A stretch of DNA of 64,000 bases, taken from contig NZ_CP118224.1 in assembly GCF_030849025.1 (NCBI RefSeq), positions 2,595,001 to 2,659,000 of the forward strand, written 5' to 3'. The notes below the pieces were generated by a model. It did no database searches, was not told the DNA's origin, and worked only from the letters and a program-made list of their open reading frames with translations. Positions 29,056 through 29,767 of the stretch are shown in pieces. The translations under genes and the position numbers were made by a program. This stretch comes from Oceanimonas pelagia (GTDB lineage: Bacteria > Pseudomonadota > Gammaproteobacteria > Enterobacterales > Aeromonadaceae). The first letter of the stretch is position 1. Each line of letters begins with the position of its first letter.

Positions 29056-29131
29056 TGGAGCGGGAAACGAGACTCGAACTCGCGACCCCAACCTTGGCAA
29101 GGTTGTGCTCTACCAACTGAGCTATTCCCGC
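29056..29131 (-). tRNA. tRNA-Gly (anticodon GCC), copy 1
   Basis: A 76-nt cloverleaf on the minus strand: acceptor GCGGGAA pairing with TTCCCGC, D arm AGCTCAGTTGGTAGAGC, anticodon arm with loop around GCC, T arm with GAGTTCGAGTCTC and an encoded CCA end. The four copies in this array are identical. This is the promoter-distal one. Confidence 0.97.
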
Positions 29132-29267
29132 GTAAACTTTCAGCTTGTGCATGGAGTCGCCGTGCGACCCTCATCAACTTCAGCAAGGTCAAGCTCTGTA
29201 TCGGATGAGCTATTCCCGCATTTAAGCTTTATAGATACCGTTCTGGTGAAACGACATCGTTGTAATC

Positions 29268-29343
29268 TGGAGCGGGAAACGAGACTCGAACTCGCGACCC
29301 CAACCTTGGCAAGGTTGTGCTCTACCAACTGAGCTATTCCCGC
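29268..29343 (-). tRNA. tRNA-Gly (anticodon GCC), copy 2
   Basis: Identical to copy 1 over all 76 nt, with encoded CCA. It is separated from copy 1 by a 136-bp repeated spacer. Confidence 0.97.
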
Positions 29344-29479
29344 GTAAACTTTCAGCTTGTGCATGGAGTCGCCGTGCGACCCTCATCAACTTCAGCAAGG
29401 TCAAGCTCTGTATCGGCTGAGCTATTCCCGCATTTAAGCGTTATAGATACCGTTCTGGTGAAACGACATCGTTGTAATC

Positions 29480-29555
29480 TGGAGCGGGAAACGAGACTCG
29501 AACTCGCGACCCCAACCTTGGCAAGGTTGTGCTCTACCAACTGAGCTATTCCCGC
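29480..29555 (-). tRNA. tRNA-Gly (anticodon GCC), copy 3
   Basis: Identical to the other copies, with encoded CCA. The spacer towards copy 2 carries the same tRNA-like 5' fragment. Confidence 0.97.
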
Positions 29556-29691
29556 GTAAACTTTCAGCTTGTGCATGGAGTCGCCGTGCGACCCTCATCA
29601 ACTTCAGCAAGGTCAAGCTCTGTGTCAGCTGAGCTATTCCCGCATTTAAGCTTTATAGATACCGTTCTGGTGAAACGTTATCGTTGTAATC

Positions 29692-29767
29692 TGGAGCGGG
29701 AAACGAGACTCGAACTCGCGACCCCAACCTTGGCAAGGTTGTGCTCTACCAACTGAGCTATTCCCGC
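29692..29767 (-). tRNA. tRNA-Gly (anticodon GCC), copy 4 (promoter-proximal)
   Basis: Identical to the other copies, with encoded CCA. It is the first gene transcribed, about 76 nt downstream of the -10 box of the promoter at 29844-29871. In E. coli three tRNA-Gly genes (glyV, glyX, glyY) occupy the same position between orn and queG. Confidence 0.97.

Follow-up and report, generated by a model that had tools for sequence, protein, structure and literature searches.

A degenerate tRNA-Gly 5' half with a slowly evolving core in the tRNA-Gly arrays of Oceanimonas, Oceanisphaera and Zobellella, a candidate non-coding RNA

The window analyzed here is a stretch of 64,000 nucleotides from Oceanimonas pelagia and contains on its minus strand four tRNA-Gly(GCC) genes of identical sequence. 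The repetition every 212 bp, as claimed in the original prediction, is confirmed by ARAGORN together with Tandem Repeats Finder (period 212, 3.4 copies, 98% matches). Promoter-like hexamers lie upstream of the array and a terminator-like hairpin lies 3' of the last tRNA. Leaders of relatives contain hexamers similar to these TTGCAT / TATAAT motifs, and relatives have an equivalent of the terminator-like hairpin as well. The prediction that E. coli has three tRNA-Gly genes at the same locus is also correct; in E. coli K-12 these are glyV, glyX and glyY after orn, separated by spacers of 36 and 35 nt. Each of the three spacers in the window comprises 136 nt and consists of 48 nt of ordinary spacer followed by a module of 88 nt. 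The features are, in the direction of transcription:

29844..29871, minus strand: promoter-like TTGCAT (29866-29871) and TATAAT (29844-29849) with a spacing of 16 bp, upstream of the array (read from the sequence)
29692..29767, minus strand: tRNA-Gly(GCC), first in the transcript (ARAGORN; Rfam RF00005, 69.9 bits)
29644..29691, minus strand: 48-nt ordinary spacer, copy 1, forming a weak hairpin with a TCACCAG-type loop (sequence comparison)
29556..29643, minus strand: 88-nt tRNA-like module, copy 1, comprising tRNA-Gly 5' half, core, hairpin and A/T-rich leader of the next tRNA (sequence comparison and relatives)
29588..29613, minus strand: slowly evolving core ACCTTGCTGAAGTTGATGAGGGTCGC, copy 1 (relative rate and invariant columns)
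29578..29594, minus strand: hairpin B, GGGTCGC-ACG-GCGACTC, copy 1 (pairing across 17 distinct sequences)
29480..29555, minus strand: tRNA-Gly(GCC), second (ARAGORN, Rfam)
29432-29479 and 29220-29267, minus strand: 48-nt ordinary spacer, copies 2 and 3 (as copy 1)
29344..29431, minus strand: 88-nt tRNA-like module, copy 2 (sequence comparison)
29376-29401 and 29164-29189, minus strand: core, copies 2 and 3 (as copy 1)
29366-29382 and 29154-29170, minus strand: hairpin B, copies 2 and 3 (as copy 1)
29268..29343, minus strand: tRNA-Gly(GCC), third (ARAGORN, Rfam)
29132..29219, minus strand: 88-nt tRNA-like module, copy 3, with T instead of G as 15th base (sequence comparison)
29056..29131, minus strand: tRNA-Gly(GCC), fourth (ARAGORN, Rfam)
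29025..29050, minus strand: terminator-like hairpin AAAAGCCGACC...GTCGGCTTTTT, 3' of the last tRNA (read from the sequence)

Between the promoter-like hexamers and the first tRNA, the leader (29768-29843, minus strand) could form a stem CCGTAGCC...GGCTACGG. At the same position the sister genus (e.g. G047) has a different yet self-complementary stem CCGTACAG...CTGTACGG.

Every module starts with GCGGGAATAGCTCAG, the 5' end of the tRNA itself, which covers 15 nt in two copies and 14 nt in the third. The order of 48 nt of spacer and then a 14-15-mer of the tRNA was thus found in all three spacers as predicted, and the high conservation of the spacers within the window is evident from pairwise differences at 5, 5 and 2 of 136 positions. 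The predicted fragment is real, but its length had been understated. Past the first 15 nt the module aligns to the remaining tRNA (AGAGC...ACCTTGC...GTTG...GGGTCGC), up to about tRNA position 50. For local alignments of this part with the tRNA, 2000 dinucleotide shuffles gave p values of 0.003, 0.0025 and 0.004 for the three copies, and global alignments gave weaker values of 0.013-0.0185; the tested segment of the third copy started further upstream because the 15-mer is inexact there. With a likeness reaching to about position 50, the module amounts to a degenerate 5' half of tRNA-Gly to which a hairpin is added. It is derived from a tRNA-Gly gene, of which the first half is retained and the rest is replaced by core and hairpin. 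No recognisable cloverleaf was reported for the modules by ARAGORN in the window or by the Rfam tRNA model in the window stretch and 10 further loci, although the tRNAs themselves were reported. The predicted GTCGC-ACG-GCGAC hairpin is present and actually longer (GGGTCGC-ACG-GCGACTC). It overlaps the core and reads GGGTCGC-NNN-GCGRCCC in most relatives, with GCGACTC as the 3' arm in the window.

A query with the array matched in the genome of the window and in 40 relatives, many of them through the tRNA alone. Within a genus set of 23 genomes (Oceanimonas, Oceanisphaera, Zobellella) the module was found in 18, with 36 parsed modules directly upstream of a tRNA-Gly gene, among them a second-locus copy of G019 that was miscut in the parse. 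Unconserved spacers and a missing 14-mer, which the original prediction had named as evidence against itself, were therefore not what the relatives revealed. Four genomes (G003, G004, G009, G012) are devoid of the module and one (G008) could not be scored, as the contig ends inside the first tRNA. Three more copies exist beyond the 36 modules: that of G015 is located where the contig ends, and G021 has two within a broken stretch. The modules sit between tRNAs or ahead of the first tRNA; arrays without a module have the ordinary spacer alone (44-69 nt). Seven genomes show a single module, two of these (G022 and G006) with gaps. All in all, the module is located directly upstream of 36 of the about 95 tRNA-Gly genes examined (96 entries, with one tRNA of G012 counted twice). 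The orn array of G012 contains a lone tRNA-Gly without module and may be a collapsed assembly. In G021 a slipped chimera of tRNA and module with a repeated anticodon stretch was observed, and hairpins without the tRNA 5' half are found beside assembly Ns.

The module is not restricted to the orn locus. A second, unlinked operon, tRNA-Gly-Cys, was covered in 18 genomes, the genus set apart from G011 and from G005, G014, G017 and G022; the latter four gave no tRNA-Gly match outside the array. This operon contains a complete module in five of the 18 genomes (G001, G002, G015, G019, G021) and the hairpin part alone in G018 and G010, perhaps also in G020. When modules were picked by the 5' fragment alone, so that selection was independent of the part under test, 37 of the 38 non-tRNA 5' fragments in the arrays turned out to precede the core TTGCTGAAGTTGA, with three changes or fewer; the 38th is a slipped copy with the core further on. 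Conversely, all 18 N-free inter-tRNA spacers longer than 80 nt contain the core (two with Ns were set aside). The module occurs on both sides of the midpoint-rooted orn tree. It is probably older than the split of Oceanimonas, Oceanisphaera and Zobellella, and since then most species have probably kept at least one copy in one or both tRNA-Gly operons. The four genomes without it indicate that the module is dispensable.

In the wider family the orn array of 15 genomes (two cut short) has spacers of 20-56 nt with three exceptions. The array of G065 has an N-filled gap, and the arrays of the sister genus (G045 and G047) contain a decayed full-length copy of tRNA-Gly in the third spacer. A search of 75 family genomes with the module tail gave matches with E values up to 0.0012 exclusively within the genus set and in tRNA-Gly loci, and the best match outside the set had an E value of 0.0095. 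Some match at E up to 0.5 was obtained in 58 of the 75 genomes and is taken as chance. The core pattern was found in 14 stretches of genome contigs, 12 in the three genera and two in unrelated assemblies with no tRNA within 8 kb, and it was absent from viral contigs. A mobile element was rejected, as the tail matches with E values up to 0.0012 in the 75 genomes are confined to tRNA-Gly loci and the viral contigs contain no core pattern. Of 394 genomes of the order, 240 were matched by the covariance model R1 with E values up to 0.01. Among the matches listed, all those with at least 38 bits belong to the genus set; the best one outside reached 29.7 bits with a nominal one-genome E value of 9.2e-7, the E values of this model being rough. 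Of the outside matches that were made into loci, the nine best lack a tRNA in the roughly 1.5 kb to their left and right. Since tRNAs are missing nearby and the E values are rough, the outside matches are probably due to chance, and no convincing relative of the module was found in the 394 genomes outside the genus set. No description of the module was found in the titles and abstract openings of the papers listed.

The rate of change was estimated on one tree of 18 species with one module per species. Relative rates were 2.63 for orn third positions, 0.287 for orn first and second positions, and 0.504, 0.195 and 0.987 for 5' part, core and tail of the module. Relative to orn third positions, the core, which comprises 26 columns only, thus changes at a rate about 13-fold lower. 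It has 17 invariant columns out of 26, compared with 9/178 for orn third positions (Fisher p = 2e-12), 7/37 for the tail (p = 2.5e-4) and 10/30 for the 5' part (p = 0.03), and does not differ from orn first and second positions (241/356, p = 0.83). In the 50 species pairs with an orn third-position identity of 0.3-0.5 the core (28-nt cut) had a mean identity of 0.85, followed by the 5' part with 0.74, short spacers with 0.62 and the tail with 0.55, the decayed first copy of G001 being set aside; the last two values are in our judgement close to those of a gapped alignment of unrelated sequence. Between distant species the tail diverges as fast as ordinary spacers or faster. A hand alignment to the tRNA revealed seven core columns that are unlike the tRNA, and four of these are invariant, which argues that the conservation is not caused by conversion by, or copying from, the real tRNA. 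The slow change of the core suggests that the module does something.

The structure of the module is less clearly marked and is rated as plausible, because pairing is kept, covariation is not beyond shuffles and folding z-scores are modest. Two alignments were used, A1 with 25 and A2 with 17 module sequences. Hairpin B is paired in 95% of cells among 17 distinct sequences, and its changes mostly keep the pairing (U-G to U-A, G-C to G-U, once G-C to U-A), but its covariation does not exceed that of column shuffles, 132-159 of 500 of which reach the observed values. A second helix proposed by RNAalifold is 96% paired and shows no covariation. Single-sequence folds place the 5' part of the module either in a D-arm-like hairpin or in this RNAalifold helix. 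The mean folding z-score of 33 modules was -1.2, with four of them below -2, compared with a mean of -1.96 for 45 distinct short spacers and -2.2 for the tRNA of the window. Cloverleaf-like helices drawn on alignment A1 were mostly mis-registered, with 44% of cells paired, and were dropped. In most species the ordinary spacer (29432-29479, 29220-29267, 29644-29691 and its counterparts in relatives) folds into a hairpin with an ACCAG-type loop; its arms vary, e.g. CGATATTGCT/AGCGATATTG in G006 and AAACATGGGTT/GACCGGTGTTT in G015.

As best explanation we propose that the module is a functional non-coding RNA specific to this lineage, which arose by exaptation of a tRNA-Gly pseudogene and is set free from the pre-tRNA spacers in a manner resembling RtT RNA, a reading to which we give slightly less than an even chance. 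As it lies among the tRNA genes of what looks like one unit, the module would be transcribed together with the tRNAs. From what is known of tRNA maturation, it could be freed by the RNase P cut at the 5' end of the next tRNA and by an endonuclease acting in the preceding A/U-rich stretch. The freed RNA, chiefly core and hairpin, may then act in trans as a small non-coding RNA or as a binding platform. As no more than 36 of the about 95 genes for tRNA-Gly examined are preceded by a module, a role in the maturation of every neighbouring tRNA is unlikely. Most tRNA-Gly genes without a module and several genomes showing a single copy are the reason why we prefer an RNA acting in trans to a maturation aid for every tRNA; a released trans RNA or an element used once per transcript fits better. 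Arguments against a functional RNA are the decaying copies (first copy of G001, partial copies at the second locus), the weak covariation, the modest folding z-scores, the fast tail, the dispensability, the restriction of the core to 26 columns and the outcome of the searches for a complement of the core and for pairing with RyhB given below. A further-reaching proposal, offered tentatively, is that the clade of Oceanimonas, Oceanisphaera and Zobellella has a new family of non-coding RNA, which goes back to a tRNA-Gly pseudogene and is supplied from two operons through tRNA processing, in an amount tied to tRNA-Gly synthesis. Should it hold, this RNA family could report or adjust the supply of glycine-tRNA. 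As had been considered in the original prediction, the module may also engage RNase P or other enzymes acting on tRNA as a decoy.

The nearest known case in mode of origin is RtT RNA, although the tests applied here do not place the module in that family. The rtT repeats of E. coli tyrT contain the 3' end of the tRNA; the tRNA part of the module is the 5' half of tRNA-Gly. The module, too, resides in an apparent tRNA transcription unit adjoining tRNA genes, as seen for the 36 parsed modules, the unit being judged from promoter- and terminator-like sequence. Of the predicted likeness to rtT, the position between tRNAs with a piece of tRNA and its conservation in relatives hold, but a match to the RtT family does not. 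With E values up to 1, Rfam reported tRNA only and no RtT in the stretch 28000-31000 of the window, and RtT gave no match in 10 further loci, so that membership in this family was rejected; matches to other small RNA families in the 10 loci were all below the cut-offs of their own families. RtT has members next to tRNA genes in Pasteurellaceae. It is described as an RNA set free from the transcript of a tRNA operon, and two candidates of Actinobacillus pleuropneumoniae assigned to RtT lie upstream of tRNA genes (PMC4986893). The module would join the few known RNAs released from tRNA spacers.

A somewhat unlikely alternative is that the module acts in cis and, together with its hairpin, directs how the polycistronic tRNA-Gly precursor is folded or cut, with no more than one copy needed in each transcript. 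It is consistent with the distance to the next tRNA, which amounts to 81-91 nt in 34 of 38 fragments, and with the location of the sole copy seen in G018, G016, G020 and G014 ahead of the first tRNA. Moreover, in a fold of tRNA, spacer and tRNA from the window, GCGGGAA of the module pairs with the 3' strand of the upstream tRNA with a probability of up to 0.91, so that the module could compete with tRNA folding; this fold ignores modification and co-transcriptional folding. On the other hand, most tRNA-Gly genes in the same arrays have no module, four species have none at all, and the position within the array varies.

The original prediction had also considered a duplication scar. Bacterial tRNA pseudogenes, which occur in tandem arrays such as the tRNA-Pro/His arrays of Photobacterium, are usually treated as debris, and the module shares with them the origin from a tRNA of the same array and the location in a spacer. 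A functionless scar that is maintained through tandem recombination and was copied from one tRNA-Gly locus to another would account for the near-identical tandem copies within a genome, the clean gains and losses, and the slipped and decayed copies of G021 and G001. The decayed tRNA-Gly copies in the array of the sister genus (G045, G047) demonstrate that such scars do arise. However, these are decayed full-length tRNAs; the module is truncated, has a core and a hairpin of its own, and its core is conserved between genera. Of the two marks of a pseudogene the module has the derivation from a tRNA but not the neutral rate, since the core changes at 0.195 compared with 2.63 for orn third positions, and this difference of about 13-fold speaks against a mere scar of duplication. 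By established population-genetic reasoning, divergence between species is not slowed down by homogenisation within genomes, and conservation extends to core columns unlike the tRNA. We therefore regard the scar as unlikely. A truncated tRNA kept in pre-tRNA spacers across three genera provides a testable case of a tRNA becoming another RNA.

It is highly improbable that the module codes for a small basic peptide of the kind proposed for E. coli rtT. The predicted frame exists: the window contains the frame MRVARRLHAQAE and an open frame LLKLMRVARRLHAQAE..., and the frame from TTG is open for 13 residues or more in each of the 35 modules read. However, neither start codon nor frame is conserved, as ATGAGG is missing from all nine modules of the second basal clade (G005, G010, G011, G014, G017, G022) and from several others, and the C-terminal residues and the relation of the frame to the next tRNA vary by species; the peptide was therefore rejected.

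The glyW-cysT-leuZ transcript of E. coli, to which the module-bearing tRNA-Gly-Cys operon is related, has a 3' external transcribed spacer. In E. coli, such a spacer of a tRNA transcript was reportedly described by Lalaouna in 2015 as a sponge for small RNAs, and in both cases a non-tRNA piece of a tRNA transcript would function as RNA. The module differs in being internal or 5' to tRNA-Gly and not 3' of the last tRNA, and in showing no pairing with RyhB above shuffles. That it acts as a sponge of RyhB is the least probable of the readings considered, scarcely credible even with RyhB present above the Rfam cut-off in all six genomes of the genus set searched and with tRNA-Gly-Cys as one of the two module-bearing operons. 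In a crude test, an unconstrained duplex with a 100-nt stretch around RyhB, the energies were no better than those of shuffles in any of the six genomes (p 0.15-0.79 for shuffled RyhB, 0.18-0.69 for shuffled module), and the sponge was rejected. A search for GcvB gave matches in three of six genomes, none of them above the cut-off. The complement of the core with at most two mismatches was matched in all 23 genomes, above the control with the reversed pattern (e.g. 31 vs 8 in the genome of the window). Among the matches listed, which cover 7 of the 23 genomes, no shared near-perfect complement was seen, and the one-mismatch complements outside the modules differ between genomes and hence indicate no shared target.
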